A stretch of DNA of 29,730 nucleotides. Source: a virus. Location of the stretch: positions 1 through 29,730 of the IMG/VR virus record IMGVR_UViG_3300036985_004720, one strand, 5' to 3'. Shown piece by piece: positions 2,446 to 26,104 of this stretch; within the stretch, counting starts at the first letter, position 1; each line of letters begins with the position of its first letter. The translations under genes were made by a program, and so were the position numbers. The notes below the pieces were generated by a model. That model worked only from the letters and a program-made list of their open reading frames with translations. It had not been told where the DNA came from and made no database searches.

Positions 2446-2842
2446 TATTTTCTTTTATTTTTTCTGCATATAATAAATATGCTTTGTGTGCTTCTTCAGT
2501 AGTGTCGAAATAACCTAAATAAATTGTTTTATTATTCACTTTGATAGTAGAGCGATACTTTCTGATTTTTTTATTAAACCAATATTTTATTAAAGGATTT
2601 GAATGAAAGTTATCTGATGCTTTCTGAACATTATATAATTTTTCTAAATCTCTCCACATTAAATAGAGTTGTTCTTTTGGTTTCTTAGTGTCCCACTTAC
2701 TTATTGAAATATACTTTTGAAATAAATCTATTAACTCAATAAATAATTCTTGGTCTGAAATTTGATAATTTCTTTTTTTAATTCTCTCAACGAATTCAAT
2801 TAAATCACTTCTATCCGGTTGTTCTTTTCTATGTCTTCCCAT
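2438..2842 (-). CDS. AP2-like domain protein (134 aa)
   Basis: The C-terminal 40 residues match the AP2 DNA-binding domain pattern: KYRSTIKVNNKTIYLGYFDT followed by TEEAHKAYLLYA. This is the module found in plant AP2/ERF factors and, in phages, in HNH homing endonucleases. The N-terminal about 90 residues (basic, then SDLIEFVERIKKRNY) are not recognised, and no nuclease core is visible. It directly precedes the NUMOD1-like gene with an 8-nt overlap, so the pair may be parts of a decayed or split mobile endonuclease. Sequence-specific DNA binding is likely, target unknown. Confidence 0.6.
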   Translation of the reverse strand: MGRHRKEQPDRSDLIEFVERIKKRNYQISDQELFIELIDLFQKYISISKWDTKKPKEQLYLMWRDLEKLYNVQKASDNFHSNPLIKYWFNKKIRKYRSTIKVNNKTIYLGYFDTTEEAHKAYLLYAEKIKENNG

Positions 2843-2892
2843 GTATATTATATATTAAATTGTTAAAATGGTTTATTGAATATATTATATCT

Positions 2893-3153
2893 TTATTTTA
2901 ATTTTTTATAGATGTGGTATATGTTTATCTTATCAACTAAATTACACTCATCATAAATACTTTGTAATTCATCCCAAAAGTCATCATCTCTATCTAGTTC
3001 GCAATATTGTCTATATACATCTTCAATAGATTGACCTTTGTATATAGTTTTTCTTAAAATGTAGTTGCCTTCTTTGTCTATATGAAACAATTCGCCTTTA
3101 TAGGTTGTTGAACTCATATTGTAAATTAATCGGTTTATCTTTTCAAATCTCAT
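2893..3153 (-). CDS. Hypothetical protein (86 aa), first gene of the left minus-strand run
   Basis: The protein is not recognised. It is acidic in the middle (YCELDRDDDFWDELQSIYDE) with no membrane segment. The ATG at 3151-3153 is the leftward boundary of the divergent spacer, and a 12-bp inverted repeat begins right at the start codon. A TCTATAAAAAAT motif lies at its 3' end, upstream of the 2842 gene. Its position as first gene of an outward-facing early operon would suit a host-takeover or regulatory protein, which is inference. Confidence 0.6.
   Translation of the reverse strand: MRFEKINRLIYNMSSTTYKGELFHIDKEGNYILRKTIYKGQSIEDVYRQYCELDRDDDFWDELQSIYDECNLVDKINIYHIYKKLK
2901..2912 (-). promoter_or_regulatory. 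TCTATAAAAAAT motif before the AP2-like gene
   Basis: The minus-strand TCTATAAAAAAT lies about 59 nt upstream of the 2842 start codon, inside the 3' end of the preceding gene. It is the shortest match of the five-member motif set, without the trailing CC. Confidence 0.35.
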
Positions 3154-3195
3154 AATGAATATATCTATAATTTATATTGAATAATATATTCATTA
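3153..3195. promoter_or_regulatory. 12-bp inverted repeat at the start of the leftward operon
   Basis: TAATGAATATAT (3153-3164) and ATATATTCATTA (3184-3195) are perfect inverted repeats with a 19-nt AT-rich spacer. They overlie the start and leader of the 86-aa gene. They fit an operator or an origin-proximal binding site; the AT-richness tempers confidence. Confidence 0.4.
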
Positions 3196-3448
3196 CAAGT
3201 TTTCTTCATTATTTCTTTGGCTAAGAAATACACCACTTGAAATTTAAGTAAGGTAGATAATTTATCAAATGTATTAATAGGTTAAAGTATTTGAGGAACC
3301 AATTTCATAATCTATATATCTATATATCTATATCTATATATCATTATAATCTTATTCATAAAAATAAAAAAAAGTGAATAACTTATATAAAAAGTGTGTA
3401 GGGGAGGATAACTTTTTAATATATATAATATAAAAATAAACAAAGAAT
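3154..3448. other. Divergent AT-rich intergenic region, candidate control region or origin
   Basis: No gene is supported in these 295 bases. The region separates the leftward minus-strand genes from the only plus-strand operon, which encodes the polymerase-like protein. It holds the inverted repeat at 3153-3195, a run of repeated CTATATAT units at about 3311-3343, and a G-rich patch (GTGTGTAGGGGAGGATAAC, about 3392-3410) that stands out from its surroundings. Such a layout suits bidirectional promoters or a replication origin, but nothing here proves an origin. Confidence 0.4.
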
Positions 3449-4452: not shown

Positions 4453-4908
4453 ATGGCAGCAGAAGATTATAAAACAAAAAGAAATGGAATTGAAATGAAT
4501 ATTTCAAAAGCAGTTCGTATAGACAAAGCAAAAATAGGACAAAAGAAATTCGAAGAATTAAAATTAGAATATGATATAGAAGTAATAGAAAATAAAAATA
4601 ATATAATAAGATTTATACACGATGAACAAGAGTATTACTATGGTGTAGTATCTAGAAAAATACGAAAGGCTGGAGAAAGAGAGTGGACCACAAAAATTAG
4701 TCAAATACTATACAATAAAAACAATAACAAAGAAAAAATTAACGAATTCAAAGAAAGATTTAATTTTGGTAAATATAAAGGTAAGGAAGTAAAATGGGTT
4801 ATAGAAAATGACCCTCAATATTATAAATGGTGTTTAGATAATGTTAAAAAGTTTAAGACATCAATTCATTGGAAAGGATATACTCTAAGTAAAAAAGAAG
4901 CAAATTAA
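4453..4908 (+). CDS. ExoX-C-like (FGKYKGK) domain protein, replication operon (151 aa)
   Basis: The C-terminal part shows FGKYKGKEVKWVIENDPQYY (105-124) followed by KWCLDN. This matches the small domain found at the C-terminus of exodeoxyribonuclease X and in many phage nucleic-acid enzymes. The N-terminal 95 residues are lysine-rich (YKTKRNGIEMNISKAVRIDK) and carry no visible DEDD exonuclease motifs, so catalysis is not supported. It begins 23 nt after the polymerase-like gene and is presumably co-transcribed, suggesting an accessory role in replication such as nucleic-acid binding. Its 3' end overlaps the convergent GIY-YIG gene by 4 nt. Confidence 0.55.
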   Translation: MAAEDYKTKRNGIEMNISKAVRIDKAKIGQKKFEELKLEYDIEVIENKNNIIRFIHDEQEYYYGVVSRKIRKAGEREWTTKISQILYNKNNNKEKINEFKERFNFGKYKGKEVKWVIENDPQYYKWCLDNVKKFKTSIHWKGYTLSKKEAN

Positions 4909-5255
4909 GAAAAATATTTATCATCATTATTCAAAGCAAAATTAATTGAGTGGACTTTCATCCACTCTTTTTCTTTTGATAACAAATAACGATTAAAACT
5001 CTTCACCAATTCTTTTCCTTTCATCTGGTTCTCTTTTTTATATTCAGTTAAACTAACATACTCCAAGATAGAGAAAGTTAAACCAACGACACCTAATTCG
5101 TTAAATTTACATTGTAATTCTGGTGAATGATGTGAGCCTTGTTTCAATAATGTGTAGTGAGAAGACCACCTAGAAAAAGTATCTATTGACTTACCAATAT
5201 AATAGTATTCACCAATTGAGATTTTATAAATACCGGCACATTTTATCTTATACAA
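4905..5255 (-). CDS. GIY-YIG family endonuclease (116 aa)
   Basis: The GIY-YIG core is complete: GIY at 8-10, YIG at 19-21, R29 in FSRW, H33, the LQCKFNELG helix region and a Glu in LLSKEKEW near residues 95-97. Length and architecture fit a freestanding homing endonuclease without an added DNA-binding module. The start is TTG (5253-5255): an in-frame stop lies just upstream, and no ATG occurs before the catalytic motif. It is the last gene of the long minus-strand run, 9 nt after the small membrane gene, and converges on the replication operon. Selfish mobility is likely; a repair role cannot be excluded. Confidence 0.8.
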   Translation of the reverse strand: MYKIKCAGIYKISIGEYYYIGKSIDTFSRWSSHYTLLKQGSHHSPELQCKFNELGVVGLTFSILEYVSLTEYKKENQMKGKELVKSFNRYLLSKEKEWMKVHSINFALNNDDKYFS

Positions 5256-20402: not shown

Positions 20403-20882
20403 TTATTTTATTTCTTGTTGAATTACAGAACTTACTAATTTTTCTATATCAATCATACCACTTTTTAAGATTTTGTTTTTTAAATTTAAAACATTACCAA
20501 GTGTTTTCTTTAAGACATCAGTTTTTTTGATTCCTTTTTGTCCTATACTTCTTCTTATAATAAAAGCTGTTTGTTCATTTTTTAGAAATCCTTGTCCATT
20601 TTTATTCTTAAATCTTATATTTCTTGTTTTAACCCAAGATAAAATAGGTTTTAGTGGTGGTTGTTTTCCTGGTCTTCTACCTTCATCAACAAATTTTAAG
20701 TAATCTAAAGCTTTAATTATAACCTCAAATTGTCCTTCAACCTTTTCAATAATCTCATAATCTAAACTTCTCAATAATCTACCACTAGCAACCTTATCTA
20801 ATTGAATTAATTGTATAGTTAATTCTTTAATATATTCATCACCAAATACTTCTAATTCTTTTTTTAGATTTTCAAATTCCAT
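20403..20882 (-). CDS. HK97 gp10-like neck / tail completion protein (159 aa)
   Basis: The segment ASGRLLRSLDYEI followed by LDYLKFVDEGRRPGKQPPLK and ILSWVKTRNI is the HK97-gp10-like signature. FIIRRSIGQKGIKKTDVL and a helix follow, also characteristic. Members join the head connector to the tail. The gene starts at ATG 20880-20882, overlapping the 52-aa ORF upstream by 11 nt. It lies among tail genes rather than beside the connector gene at 5988-6560, another sign of the unusual gene order. Confidence 0.75.
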   Translation of the reverse strand: MEFENLKKELEVFGDEYIKELTIQLIQLDKVASGRLLRSLDYEIIEKVEGQFEVIIKALDYLKFVDEGRRPGKQPPLKPILSWVKTRNIRFKNKNGQGFLKNEQTAFIIRRSIGQKGIKKTDVLKKTLGNVLNLKNKILKSGMIDIEKLVSSVIQQEIK

Positions 20883-21192: not shown

Positions 21193-22299
21193 TTATTTTC
21201 TTATTTTTATTAAATCACAATAGTTGGTGTCTAGTAAACCGAGACCACCACCACCACCATTTTGTATGGCTACAACTATATAACCATTTTGTGTCCAATC
21301 AATTATTACATTACTTGGACTACGTGCTAAACTACCATTTGCATTAGTACCAAAATCACTTGCGTATGCACCACCTAATTCCGTCACAGTTGTACTATTT
21401 GTTGCACTAACAATAGCAACATTTCTGGACATATACACTGAATTGGCAGTAGGAAGAACAGTTGGTGCTATACCTAATAATGCAGGTGTGCCATCAATAT
21501 CCGGAGTTACATTCCAATACACTCTAGCTATATAATTTCCATTACCAGTTGCTCCTGTTATCCTACGAACTCGCATTGAAAATTCTGGTACGTCATTTGT
21601 GGTGTAACTATTCGCTGGTACTAGTAATGCTTTTGAGAAGGTGTTGTCTGTTGATGATACGGTTGCACCATTACTTGCTGAACTTAAAGTATCATTAGGT
21701 CCTATTGGTCCTTGTGGCCCAGTTGGTCCTTGTGGCCCAGTTGGTCCTTGTGGACCAGTTGGACCTACAACACCTGATGTAATTATCTGAGTCACACCAT
21801 TTAGATTAAATGAATAGCTTGCTATATCTTGAATAGGTATAGTGCAAGGTGTATATCTAAATCCTTGCTTAAATCTTAAAGTTGTTTTATGTCCATTTAC
21901 ATTCTCATCAGTAACCTCAAAAACAGCCTCTGTATTTATATCACCATCTAATCTTAAACCAGCTGCCACATAGTATGGGTGTTGTGATATTTCAGTAATG
22001 ATTGTATGTAAAATATATAAAGTATCTGATGTTGTATCTTGATAATTATTATCACCTTTATTTATTCTATCCATCATATATACATCAAAATCATAAAACA
22101 CTTCTCTATAAGAAATACCATTACCTCTTGAAAGTGTTGAGGATGTATTCTCAATGTGTAAATAAGGCATCTTTAATTCACCTCCAGTATTGATGTCTGA
22201 AAGTGGTCCATATGAAAAAGCATTAACCATTAAATGTCTTTCAGCAACATCCCTAAAAATATCAATGATTTTATTTATACTTAAAGTATTACTCGCCAT
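21193..22299 (-). CDS. Collagen-stalk fibre with terminator-like N-domain, short paralogue (368 aa)
   Basis: Residues 1-160 form a domain almost identical to the N-terminus of the 22374-24056 protein ([32 protein letters not shown]). Its pattern, including YILHTIITEI, recalls tail-terminator or tail-completion proteins of Bacteroidota phages. A short collagen-like stretch (GPTGPQG repeats, 179-201) follows. A C-terminal beta domain (ALLVPANSYTTNDV, NVIIDWTQNGYIVVAIQNGG) is shared in a diverged form with the paralogue. The protein is probably a trimeric fibre anchored at the neck or tail. Gene duplication with separate evolution of the tip is seen directly. Confidence 0.65.
   Translation of the reverse strand: MASNTLSINKIIDIFRDVAERHLMVNAFSYGPLSDINTGGELKMPYLHIENTSSTLSRGNGISYREVFYDFDVYMMDRINKGDNNYQDTTSDTLYILHTIITEISQHPYYVAAGLRLDGDINTEAVFEVTDENVNGHKTTLRFKQGFRYTPCTIPIQDIASYSFNLNGVTQIITSGVVGPTGPQGPTGPQGPTGPQGPIGPNDTLSSASNGATVSSTDNTFSKALLVPANSYTTNDVPEFSMRVRRITGATGNGNYIARVYWNVTPDIDGTPALLGIAPTVLPTANSVYMSRNVAIVSATNSTTVTELGGAYASDFGTNANGSLARSPSNVIIDWTQNGYIVVAIQNGGGGGLGLLDTNYCDLIKIRK
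21707..21760. repeat. Three 18-bp collagen-coding repeats
   Basis: Three tandem 18-bp units (GGTCCTTGTGGCCCAGTT, twice exact, third with one change) encode the GPQGPT triplets of the short fibre. Slippage could change stalk length. Confidence 0.85.
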
Positions 22300-22346
22300 C
22301 TGTTATTATTAAATTTGTAATTGCTTCTATTAAATCTAGCATATCT

Positions 22347-22356
22347 TAAATATATT
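22347..22356 (-). promoter_or_regulatory. AATATATTTAAGATA motif before the short fibre gene
   Basis: Identical over 17 bases to the copy before the tape measure gene. It lies 47 nt before the 22299 start codon, the most promoter-like spacing of the set. It separates the two fibre genes, allowing independent expression of the short paralogue. Confidence 0.5.
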
Positions 22357-22373
22357 TTGTTTGTATTTATTTT

Positions 22374-24056
22374 TTACCTTTTTATTTTAATAAATGAACT
22401 TCTAGCAGCTGCGCTATCTGCAGCAACCGTACATTGTGTTGATACTACAATATATAAATCAGCTGTCCAATTTGCTAACAATACATTGACACCAAGATTC
22501 GAACCGAGCCAATCTGTATTACTACCTCCAGTATTTGAAAATACTTCAGTTGAAGCAGTAGCAGATTTTATTGATAAAAATCTATTAAATTGAAGGTATG
22601 TTTGATTTACCGCTGCTGTTGTATTTGTAGCTACTAATATTGGAGAACCAGATATACTATTAATAGTATTTATATAAATCCTCATTGTCATATTACCAGC
22701 AGTGCCTGTTTTTCTACCACGAACCGTAACTTCAACATTATTTCCCACAGTGAAACTATTAGCTGGTACTAAAACACCACTTGTATAAACATTTGATGTG
22801 GTACCTGATGTTACAGCTCCATCGGTTGTTGTTTCATAAACATTTGATGGTCCTGTTGCTCCTTGAAAACCTTGAATTCCTTGTGGTCCTGTTGCTCCTT
22901 GAAAACCTTGAATTCCTTGTGGACCAGTTACTCCTTGAAAACCTTGGTTACCTTGTGGACCTGTTGGTCCTTGAAAACCTTGATTGCCTTGTGGACCTGT
23001 TGGTCCTTGAAAACCTTGGTTACCTTGTGGCCCTGCCACACCAATAGATAAAGGTACAAATATTATATCGTGTCCATTACTAAATGAATATCCACCAGTC
23101 ACATATGTAACTGGTATTGAAACATAATCATTAGGTATAATTGTAGGTGTTCCACTTACGGTCCATTTCTGATAGTTATTAGAATTATTTTCATCTTGTA
23201 TAACTATACTATCACCAATTGTAATCAATGCTAAAAAAACATCAATATCTACATTATCTCTAGTTAAATGGTCAACATATAATATAGTTGAGTTTATTTG
23301 TGTTGCATTATTCCACATAATTTGTTTAGCACCAGGAGGTGGTGTTTGTGAATTCGTTTTTGCATTATATTTATAGTATGATATTGATATACCATTTTGA
23401 CCTTGTGGGCCTGTTGCTCCTTGTAAACCTTGGAATCCTTGAGGACCAGTTGCGCCATTAATACCATTAGTACCTTGTGGACCTGTTGCTCCTTGAAAAC
23501 CTTGTGGACCTTGAGGTCCTGTTGCTCCTGAAACTGGTGATGTTGAGATTGAACCATTCAGACTAAAAGTCCATCCTGGTATCTCGTCTATTGGAATGGT
23601 ACAAGGTGTAAATCTAAATCCTTGCTTAAATCTTAAAGTCGCTCTGTGACCATTTACATTTTCATCAGTCGCTTCAAATACAGATTCAGTAGTTACATCA
23701 TCTATAAGTTTTAAACCAGCAGCCACATAATATGGATGTTGGTCTATTTCAGAAATGATTGTATGTAATATGTAAAGTGTATCACTTGTTGTGTCTTGAT
23801 AGTTTGAATCACCTTTATTTATTCTATCCATTACATACACATCAAAGTTGTAATATACTTCTCTATAATCTATTCCTGTTCCTCTTGAAAGTGTTGAGGA
23901 TGTATTTTCAATATGTAAGTAAGGCATTTTTAATTCACCTTGAGTGTTTATATCAGATAAAGGACCATATGAAAAAGCATTAATCATCATATGTCTATTT
24001 GCTATATCATTAAACATTTCGATTAATCTATTGATTGATATTGTATCACTTGCCAT
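22374..24056 (-). CDS. Collagen-stalk fibre with terminator-like N-domain, long paralogue (560 aa)
   Basis: The order is: N-terminal domain (1-160, near-identical to the short paralogue), collagen-like segment I (177-222, [12 protein letters not shown] type), a non-repetitive domain (223-340), collagen-like segment II (341-403, five 12-residue units of [12 protein letters not shown] type) and a C-terminal beta domain (404-560) that is related to but clearly diverged from the short paralogue. It follows the frameshifted tail chaperone within a few bases. The N-domain position next to the chaperone suits a terminator or neck protein carrying a fibre. The Gly-X-Y runs imply a trimer. Confidence 0.65.
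22855..23034. repeat. Five 36-bp tandem repeats encoding the second collagen stalk
   Basis: Five consecutive units of exactly 36 bp share the core CTTGAAAACCTTG and differ at a few positions. They encode 12-residue collagen units. The exact periodicity favours copy-number change by slippage or recombination. Confidence 0.9.
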
Positions 24057-24058
24057 TA

Positions 24059-24325
24059 TTATCTTTTATTTTTCTTATATTGTTGTTCTTCAAATCTTCT
24101 TTTATCTAGTAAGTAACTTAATACATCTAAACAATAAAACATATTCATTTCATATACTGCTTCGTGTTTCGTTATGTCATTGTTTGATAATTCATGTACC
24201 ATACTTATCCAGTTATATATTGGGTTTAATTCGTATTCTCCAATCCCTGAGCTTTTAACCCCTGAACCATTAAAAAGGCCTCTGTATCTATCAGAGTAGA
24301 TTTGTCTTTCCCAGCGAAAAAAAAA
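24059..24325 (-). CDS. -1 frame extension of the tail assembly chaperone (T part)
   Basis: The -1 frame relative to 24226-24855 is free of stops from the A9 tract (24317-24325) to TAA at 24059-24061. It adds about 85 residues ([19 protein letters not shown] near the start, [20 protein letters not shown] at the end) to make a fusion of about 265 residues. No ATG in this frame lies near the overlap, so expression by frameshifting is the simplest explanation. It ends 3 nt before the long fibre start. A sequencing error in the homopolymer would give the same picture, but the in-frame chaperone ORF also ends properly. Confidence 0.65.
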
Positions 24326-24855
24326 GATAAATAATGATATAAATCACACATCATTGCTTCATTCTCTAATAGTTTAGCAATCTTCTTACAATCATCTGGT
24401 CTAAACTTATCTAAAACTAATTCACCATCTTCACTTAAAACCTTTCTTAAAAGAACGCTCAATACAAGATATGTTGATTGTGATTCATTTTTTACATTCT
24501 CTTGAAATGTTTTTATTGAGATATATTCACCCATAGTTAATTTTTCAAAGTCCTTTTTGAAGGCCCATTTTTCACCACCTAATATTAAATATCTATTTTC
24601 TATTTTTGGTACTGGTAGATTCATAAAATCAAATCCTTTAACTAATTCATTCAATAGGTTTAATTCAATGTTCAAAATATCCTCTTCACTACAATCAGTT
24701 AAGAGCAATAGAACTCTAATAATAAATTCATCTTCTAAACCAAGTAATTCTTTTTCTTGTTCTAGGGTTTGAAACTTTACCCAATCATTAAATTTTAGGT
24801 CTTCCCAACTATTTTTTAGGTTGAATGTTTGTCCATTTACTTCAAATTGTTTCAT
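24226..24855 (-). CDS. Tail assembly chaperone, unshifted form (G part, 209 aa)
   Basis: The N-terminus MKQFEVNGQTFNLKNSWEDL and the helical body resemble the first tail chaperone of Bacteroidota phages. LSVLLRKVLSEDGE followed by FRPDDCKKIAKLL and a closing LSFFFAGK motif are also typical. In siphoviruses this protein and its frameshifted version guide tail tube assembly round the tape measure. The UUU UUU UUC run at codons 178-180 sits right at the expected slippage point. Unusually, the gene is next to the terminase and fibre genes, about 10 kb upstream of the tape measure. Confidence 0.7.
   Translation of the reverse strand: MKQFEVNGQTFNLKNSWEDLKFNDWVKFQTLEQEKELLGLEDEFIIRVLLLLTDCSEEDILNIELNLLNELVKGFDFMNLPVPKIENRYLILGGEKWAFKKDFEKLTMGEYISIKTFQENVKNESQSTYLVLSVLLRKVLSEDGELVLDKFRPDDCKKIAKLLENEAMMCDLYHYLSFFFAGKDKSTLIDTEAFLMVQGLKAQGLENTN
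24317..24325 (-). other. Probable -1 ribosomal slippery site (T9 on coding strand)
   Basis: The coding strand reads TCT TTT TTT TTC, which contains heptamers of the T-TTT-TTT and T-TTT-TTC type in the zero frame, matching the X-XXY-YYZ rule. A slip here joins the G and T parts. GGGAAAG a few bases later is the lambda slippery heptamer but is out of phase for it. Confidence 0.6.
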
Positions 24856-24886: not shown

Positions 24887-26104
24887 TTAGTAAAATTTTA
24901 AATAGTTTACACCATTTCTGTATTTCTCAAAACACCATCTAGCTATTGCTAAACTCATAACACAATCATCATGAAATCCACTTTCAGCCATAAATTTAAT
25001 ATGACCATTATCATTTTGTTTGAATATAAATGCTTCTAGTTCAATTCGTAAGTATTCATCTTTAATAAGTTTTAATTCTTTCATATTAAAAAGATGTATA
25101 AGTCGATTAATTAATTCTGGTTTCGTTTTTGTATTTGTGTTGAAGTCGATTATATTATTAATTCTTCTTTTTAGTTCTTGAAAAATTGTTAATCCTTGAT
25201 TATTATTTTCTATTGCTATCTTTTGAAATTTCCAAGTATTATTAATCTCAACAATTTTATTAATTAAATCAGGACTTTCAATATTTGTCCATCTGTAATA
25301 TTTCACTAAATTACCATCTTCATCTAAAATTGTTAAAACAGAAGCATCTACTAATAAACCAATATCTAAACCTGCCCAATACTTTTTATTTGGTTCTGGT
25401 TCATTTATTACATCTATACACATTAATTCTATTATATTATTGAATATGGATGCGCTATCTACAAACTCTGCTTCAATCTCTTGTTTGAATAGTTTATCTG
25501 GTAAAGTTTCTTTAAATAGATTAATAAGTTCTTCATTTGCAAATGGACTATCATATGTTGAATATCTAATTGATTTCCATTTAGAATTTATTTCACCTTT
25601 TAGAAAGTAATCATATAAATAATTTTTACCTTTTGGTGTTGATATGAAAAGACATTTCTTACCTTTAACATTTAACATAGGTAAAAGTATTTCTTCAATT
25701 GTACTTTTCTTGATGAATGCTGCTTCATCTAAAATCATATAGTCAACTGACTGACCTCTCAAACTATCTTCTGAAGCTGCCGACCTAAATAATATTTTAG
25801 CATTATTTTTCAATACTATTTCAGTGTCACCTTTAGATTGTTTTGAGGATTTTATAATACCACCCTCTACTACTGATTTTTTAATATCACCAAAACATTT
25901 TTGAGCTTGACTATCTGTTGGACTAACCCAATATATTACTGAATTATTATTGTTTAGGGCCCAATATAGAGCCATATTTTCAGCAATTAATGTTTTACCA
26001 AACTGACGACCTATAATAGCAACAATAAAAAATATATTATCATCTAAACAAGAATCTACTATATGTTTTTGTTTTTCATGTGGTTTAACCAGTGTAATTA
26101 ACAT
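24887..26104 (-). CDS. terL: Terminase large subunit
   Basis: The ATPase and nuclease halves are both complete. The Walker A-like GRQFGKT is at 32-38, Walker B MILDEAAF at 123-130 (Asp126, Glu127), and the coupling motif ISTPKG at 154-159. In the nuclease domain GLDIG (Asp247), the IAIEN segment (Glu299) and HDD (378-380) supply the metal ligands of the RNase H-like fold. It pumps DNA into the prohead through the portal and cuts concatemers. At 405 residues it is slightly short but intact. It follows the small-subunit gene by 30 nt. Confidence 0.92.
   Translation of the reverse strand: MLITLVKPHEKQKHIVDSCLDDNIFFIVAIIGRQFGKTLIAENMALYWALNNNNSVIYWVSPTDSQAQKCFGDIKKSVVEGGIIKSSKQSKGDTEIVLKNNAKILFRSAASEDSLRGQSVDYMILDEAAFIKKSTIEEILLPMLNVKGKKCLFISTPKGKNYLYDYFLKGEINSKWKSIRYSTYDSPFANEELINLFKETLPDKLFKQEIEAEFVDSASIFNNIIELMCIDVINEPEPNKKYWAGLDIGLLVDASVLTILDEDGNLVKYYRWTNIESPDLINKIVEINNTWKFQKIAIENNNQGLTIFQELKRRINNIIDFNTNTKTKPELINRLIHLFNMKELKLIKDEYLRIELEAFIFKQNDNGHIKFMAESGFHDDCVMSLAIARWCFEKYRNGVNYLKFY

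Follow-up and report, generated by a model that had tools for sequence, protein, structure and literature searches.

Tail-terminator-like phage proteins running into collagen-like stalks: a candidate fusion of tail terminator and neck fibre

Two adjacent genes in the window (the whole stretch of DNA analysed, a linear, metagenome-derived IMG/VR virus record of 29,730 bases) encode proteins A and B, which are probably tail terminators, each extended at its C-terminus into a neck fibre that would touch the host. Judging from its predicted fold, the N-domain common to both would form a hexameric ring closing the tail tube below the head, and the six C-terminal arms of a ring would pair off into two trimeric neck fibres, whose exchangeable tips would bind the host surface. 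One terminator hexamer per tail and three chains per collagen helix would give two fibres per virion; with one gene, both would be alike. Placement of the fibres at the head-tail junction probably follows from the terminator reading of the N-domain. In the lineage of the window the gene was duplicated, A having a long two-part stalk and B a short one, and the two fibres of a virion could be a long one beside a short one (3A+3B), both long (6A) or both short (6B).

The gene pair and its surroundings

The genes for A (22374..24056, minus strand, 560 aa) and B (21193..22299, minus strand, 368 aa) lie head to tail on the same strand, with 74 bases between the two ORFs. Their parts and nearest neighbours, with the evidence for each, are as follows.

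24887..26104, minus: terminase large subunit (phrog_2, E 6.7e-55)
24226..24855, minus: 209-aa ORF upstream of A, with an ORF of similar size in the same slot of relatives L001, L002 and L008-L016
23559..24056, minus: N-domain of A, residues 1-166, tail-terminator-like (AF2 fold, Foldseek and VIA-align, free-standing homologues)
23385..23528, minus: first collagen-like stalk of A, residues 177-224, 16 triplets (Gly-X-Y count, Pfam PF01391)
23043..23384, minus: inserted domain of A, residues 225-338 (tblastn matches to other phage fibre proteins)
22845..23042, minus: second collagen-like stalk of A, residues 339-404, 22 triplets (Gly-X-Y count, shuffles)
22377..22844, minus: C-terminal tip of A, residues 405-560, exchanged between phages (tip 85% identical in amino acids in L026 and L027)
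21802..22299, minus: N-domain of B, residues 1-166, tail-terminator-like, paralogue of that of A (identity to A, tree)
21694..21774, minus: collagen-like stalk of B, residues 176-202, nine triplets (Gly-X-Y count, shuffles; Pfam below cut-off)
21196..21693, minus: C-terminal tip of B, residues 203-368, diverged homologue of the tip of A (tip alignment)
20403..20882, minus: tail-completion-like (HK97 gp10-like) ORF, 159 aa, next after B (phrog_29822, E 4.4e-7)

The two N-domains align without a gap and are identical in 129 of 166 residues (78%) and in 385 of 498 bases. The original prediction had this shared domain nearly unchanged: the sharing stands, but the domain is better described as well conserved. 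Beyond it the proteins part company, as had been foreseen both for the stalks, one short and one double with an insert, and for the diverged tips. A has 16 in-phase Gly-X-Y triplets, a 114-residue insert, 22 further triplets and a tip, while B has a single in-phase run of nine and then its tip; 49 of 154 aligned tip residues are identical. The longest Gly-X-Y run in 5000 shuffles was 6 for A (observed 22) and 5 for B (observed 9), and the whole-protein scores against the Pfam collagen family lie above its cut-off of 27.2 for A (65.4) and below it for B (19.3). A collagen triple helix measures 0.286 nm per residue, at which rate the stalks would be about 14 and 19 nm long in A and about 8 nm in B. 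The insert of A has tblastn matches in a protein of Methylophilaceae phage P19250A that bears a tape measure annotation (46%, E 1e-18), in a putative tail fiber of Pelagibacter phage HTVC010P and in Synechococcus phage S-CAM7, and the same domain is present in L018, L020, L005, L017 and L019.

The N-domain tree groups A and B as sisters (support 100/100), so the duplication took place within the window's own lineage. Between the two N-domains dN is 0.153 and dS 0.823 (dN/dS about 0.19); since the changes are mostly synonymous per site, the sequences indicate that both copies are kept under purifying selection. In the tips dN is 0.82 and dS 1.29, the latter values being near saturation.

The rest of the window is that of a tailed phage. 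A portal (phrog_33693, E 4e-33) and a tape measure protein (phrog_3336, E 2e-15) were recognised, as were genes resembling those of a head maturation protease and a holin, and a 794-aa protein matches phrog_38559. No sheath family was matched among the 20 window proteins put through family scans, so the tail is likely to be long and non-contractile. The 209-aa ORF is possibly a tail-assembly chaperone, which is a guess; phrog_32199 was found in the ORF of this slot in L029 and L045 and in gp38 of the isolate Nonlabens phage P12024S. The phrog_29822 protein of P12024S has a further match, to phrog_5, "tail completion or Neck1 protein" (E 4e-4). By eye, the left part of the window also has a small GIY-YIG-like ORF (4905-5255), and a small sigma-factor-like protein is found at 1021-1527; L002 and P12024S (gp33, annotated Sigma-70 region 2) have sigma-factor-like genes upstream of the terminase.

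Predicted fold and genomic slot of the N-domain

An AF2 prediction of the N-domain, built on 10 sequences, gave a model with pLDDT 76.6 and pTM 0.70, in the order helix, strands, long helix, strands. Foldseek against the PDB returned 46 chains at E ≤ 1e-3: 45 belong, by entry titles (some of which name no protein), to tail terminators or to neck, collar, connector or cap assemblies, and the remaining one is a baseplate chain at rank 39, with probability 0.47. Setting the predicted structure against known terminators, offered by the original prediction as a check, came out in its favour at the level of the single chain: VIA-align superposed it on lambda gpU (3fz2_A) with Z 12.9, rmsd 2.8 and 127 aligned, and on T5 p142 (8bcu_A) with Z 11.5, rmsd 3.1 and 137 aligned. 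Its alignment with the NF5 neck chain has Z 12.9, rmsd 2.7 and 124 aligned. PMC11784142 (excerpt) describes PDB entries 2gjv and 4acv as terminators.

By sequence, Pfam has no match for the N-domain, PHROG matches are insignificant (the best, "tail terminator" phrog_3907, has E 0.12 for L002, with none for A or B), and an HMMER search of PDB sequences with the N-domain profile matched no terminator. Within the window, a profile made without the window's rows and compared with 32 ORFs gave A and B 99.8% and the next best 1.6%, in a record of unknown completeness and by a method that misses remote folds. In P12024S the slot order is TerL, a 175-aa ORF, small ORFs, gp41 (138 aa), gp42 (phrog_29822) and large tail proteins, and gp41 matches a mixed N-domain profile at 81.9% and E 1.1e-5, versus 6.6%, no match, for the fused-only profile.

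Because fold, lone profile match in the window and the slot of P12024S gp41 agree, the most economical and a strongly supported reading is that the N-domain represents the predicted tail terminator of these phages. The terminator-like character claimed for it by the original prediction is thus upheld by the match of the predicted fold to terminators and neck assemblies, by free-standing homologues in the same slot (see below) and by the lack of a rival window ORF in the profile comparison. A terminator fold alone is no proof of function. In contractile systems the C-terminal arm of the terminator extends out to the sheath (PMC10491603; PMC10457771; excerpts), which makes an extension running outwards plausible; tagging the T5 terminator at its C-terminus gave aberrant polymers (PMC11784142, excerpt), so such an extension is not always tolerated. 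The T5 tail completion protein sits at the tail tip (PMC11784142, excerpt), and a gp10-like neighbour therefore by itself locates nothing at the neck.

Relatives, tips and rival readings

In 20 contigs retrieved with the N-domain as query, the domain continues into a collagen stalk whose start lies near residue 175-180. A search with the tip alignment, which is independent of the anchor, found 49 loci. In 11 of them a free-standing ORF of 153-156 aa lies upstream of the tip gene and matches the N-domain profile (E 1e-7 to 1e-13); each of these 11 precedes an ORF with the same tip family. By sequence, then, the parts fused in the window are separate neighbouring genes in 11 tip loci. Compared profile to profile, the fused and stand-alone sets match over the whole domain with a probability of 97.8% and E 1.2e-12. 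The gene order around the split pair (ORF of about 190 aa, N-domain, tip gene, small ORF, gp10-like ORF, ORFs of about 410 and 970 aa, tape-measure-like ORF) agrees with that of the window, and the ORF of about 970 aa belongs to phrog_38559, the family also matched by the window's 794-aa protein.

When the stand-alone set served as query, with the best 80 of 106 relatives entering the contig counts, most members proved to be fused as well, here to long collagen-free C-terminal regions (596-1443 aa when complete); one of them, L103, has a Pfam SO2946-like_C domain at its end (E 1e-14). Altogether at least 108 contigs outside the window carry the N-domain, after removal of eight contig-repeating loci. 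Of the 108 listed, 87 have the domain joined to a long C-terminal region (20 with a collagen run and 67 without), 18 have it standing alone, two have it cut short and one is an artefact. Since the same virus from different samples, many fragments and limited stretches are included, these are counts of contigs and not of lineages. Every one of the 108 contigs listed has one copy, as does each of 21 IMG/VR records searched whole (L009 included), and two copies are found only in the window; a single fibre type would thus be the rule and the pair special to the window's lineage. Elizabethkingia phage TCUEAP1, the 22nd record searched whole, has no copy. A gp10-like ORF follows the N-domain gene in 72 of 116 ORF rows (some contigs being counted twice); of the remaining rows, 40 are loci that end within 2.5 kb and four have no gp10-like ORF (L012, L013, L024 and L027).

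The artefact is L009, which was rejected as a free-standing form: past the stop codon, the collagen code continues in reverse orientation at the contig end. This inverted join (L009:10456-10584) mimics a stand-alone gene and probably arose in assembly or amplification, a true inversion being less likely; the stand-alone count is accordingly 18 and not 19. Genome contigs scanned with alignments A2 and A6 gave no relative, hence no prophage or host was identified, and scans with the 209-aa ORF, with the TCUEAP1 slot protein P0002 and with the tip of A alone gave none either. Among isolate phages, the N-domain search had an insignificant sole match (E 0.5), and the stand-alone N-domain forms and the tips of A and B had no match.

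Several relatives have further features nearby. A second collagen protein, without the terminator domain, lies just downstream in L018 (4857-7160), L015 (11816-12847) and L016 (11537-12964); that of L018 has its Gly-X-Y run from residue 17 and the same insert domain as A. In L005 (3484-4533) and L018 (1824-2873), ORFs that look by eye like DNA methyltransferases lie between the terminase and the terminator-fibre gene, filling the place of the ORF of about 200 aa in other relatives. In L001 a small GIY-YIG-like ORF (2588-3202, by eye) overlaps the beginning of the terminator-fibre gene, a position that would suit a free-standing homing endonuclease.

The tips of L026 and L027 are 85% identical to that of A in amino acids and 88.7-88.9% in DNA over 470 bases (L026, 88.7%), on anchors that match the fused-clade profile only at E 3e-6 and lack collagen. 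The tip therefore moves between anchors, as receptor-binding parts do. The predicted structure of the tip has low confidence (pLDDT 51.6) and found no PDB match at E ≤ 0.001, so the host-binding role rests on variability and exchange; from their position, divergence and exchange, the tips probably bind the host surface. The same tip family ends proteins of 800-950 aa in L033, L038, L039, L050, L051, L055, L057, L058, L061, L062, L064 and L065, which have a different N-domain and lie after a possible tail-completion gene. The strand/helix order of that N-domain looks terminator-like by eye; against the terminator profile, the L033/L062-type domain gave 1.1%, no match.

It is quite improbable that the N-domain is a terminator-derived adaptor fastening the fibre elsewhere, e.g., to the baseplate, while another protein is the true terminator. 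Such an adaptor would fit the fusion to fibre-like regions in 87 of the 108 contigs listed, the nearness of large tail genes and the general point that fold is not function; yet none of the other window ORFs among the 32 compared resembles the domain by profile (profiles being blind to remote folds), every contig listed has just one copy, and stand-alone versions occupy the same slot. More improbable by far is an assembly artefact, or a transient duplication with one copy decaying. Two copies in this one metagenome-derived record, and an inverted join at the end of the related L009, could raise the suspicion, but both ORFs are open, synonymous change is well above non-synonymous, and the pair is no assembly duplicate, since the shared DNA is 77% identical, differing at 23% of bases, and stalks and tips differ.

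Taking A and B as extended terminators, we see a substantial chance, somewhat short of even, that they are alternatives: each virion or infection would mainly use one, the second copy being a spare or a newly captured tip (a host-range variant). This is compatible with the terminator reading and rivals only the mixed ring. The single copy seen in all 108 contigs listed and all 21 IMG/VR records searched whole, tips far more diverged than the anchors and exchanged between phages, and the one ring expected per tail all suit it, whereas the purifying selection on both N-domains and two intact, adjacent ORFs so close together on one strand do not. A mixed ring was raised by the original prediction as a source of two fibre types on one virion. 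In its strict form, with 3A and 3B in one hexamer and, on every virion, exactly two neck fibres, one long and one short and differing in their tips, it is a tentative proposal and rather unlikely. Collagen stalks trimerise like with like, which would favour 3A+3B and give a heterotypic ring exactly these two fibres. If true, the ring that ends the tail would set both the number and the kind of the fibres.

Comparison with known tail and neck proteins

Tail terminators are normally small caps. Those of siphophages (lambda gpU, T5 p142) resemble the N-domain in predicted fold, and its free-standing homologues have 153-156 aa; unlike A and B, which continue at the C-terminus for 200-400 residues into stalk and tip, gpU and p142 are short and carry no fibre. 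P12024S gp41 occupies the same gene slot as the N-domain but stands alone, without a stalk, and no fibre gene lies between gp41 and gp42. TCUEAP1 (MN732896, 478-18268) has a window-like order of TerS, TerL, small ORFs, large tail proteins, tape measure, protease and portal, with products mostly annotated hypothetical and a homologue of the window's 794-aa protein (24%, E 4e-5); its gene order is similar, but its slot protein matched neither N-domain profile tried, and it was dropped as support. Collagen-like phage tail fibres (such as PHROGs 5073, 366 and 10972) share a Gly-X-Y stalk flanking globular domains, whereas their best stretches fall on the stalk, insert or tip, and none among the matches listed spans the whole N-domain.

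The fused design occurs in 87 of the 108 environmental contigs listed, on stalks both with and without collagen. Proteins that were called tail fibres from their C-termini may in many cases be neck fibres, and terminator genes in these phages could have escaped recognition because they are hidden at the start of fibre genes. The existence of split and fused forms opens the idea to genetics and microscopy.

Neck fibres are already known; their anchoring by fusion to the terminator is undescribed in the open-licence PMC papers searched, in so far as excerpted, where no report of a terminator-fibre fusion was found. In Vibrio phage XM1 the collar spike gp40 forms trimeric neck spikes touching terminator gp5 and connector gp4; it is a separate protein with an Ig-like N-domain, bound non-covalently as six trimers (PMC10457771, excerpt). 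Phage 812 has unresolved whiskers, probably attached via decoration proteins (PMC12886913, excerpt). A parallel in architecture is the neck passage structure of lactococcal 936 and TP901-1 phages, with its conserved N-domain, trimeric stalk and variable glycan-binding tips at the neck; it is a separate, non-essential collar protein whose N-domain is predicted to be BppU-like, and the collar proposed for it is an 18-mer bearing six fibres (PMC6669499, excerpt). Absence of BppU or Ig-like folds from our structure match lists excludes neither. A and B likewise have a conserved N-domain, a stalk and tips that vary and are exchanged, and would share the neck location and the trimer, but differ in that their predicted anchor is the tail terminator itself. 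As described in these excerpts, the lactococcal, XM1 and 812 neck fibres are proteins of their own that attach to the neck; here a single polypeptide would serve as terminator and fibre alike, fixing the fibre number (six arms, two trimers) and, in a phage with a long tail, placing the putative receptor-binding tips at the head end.
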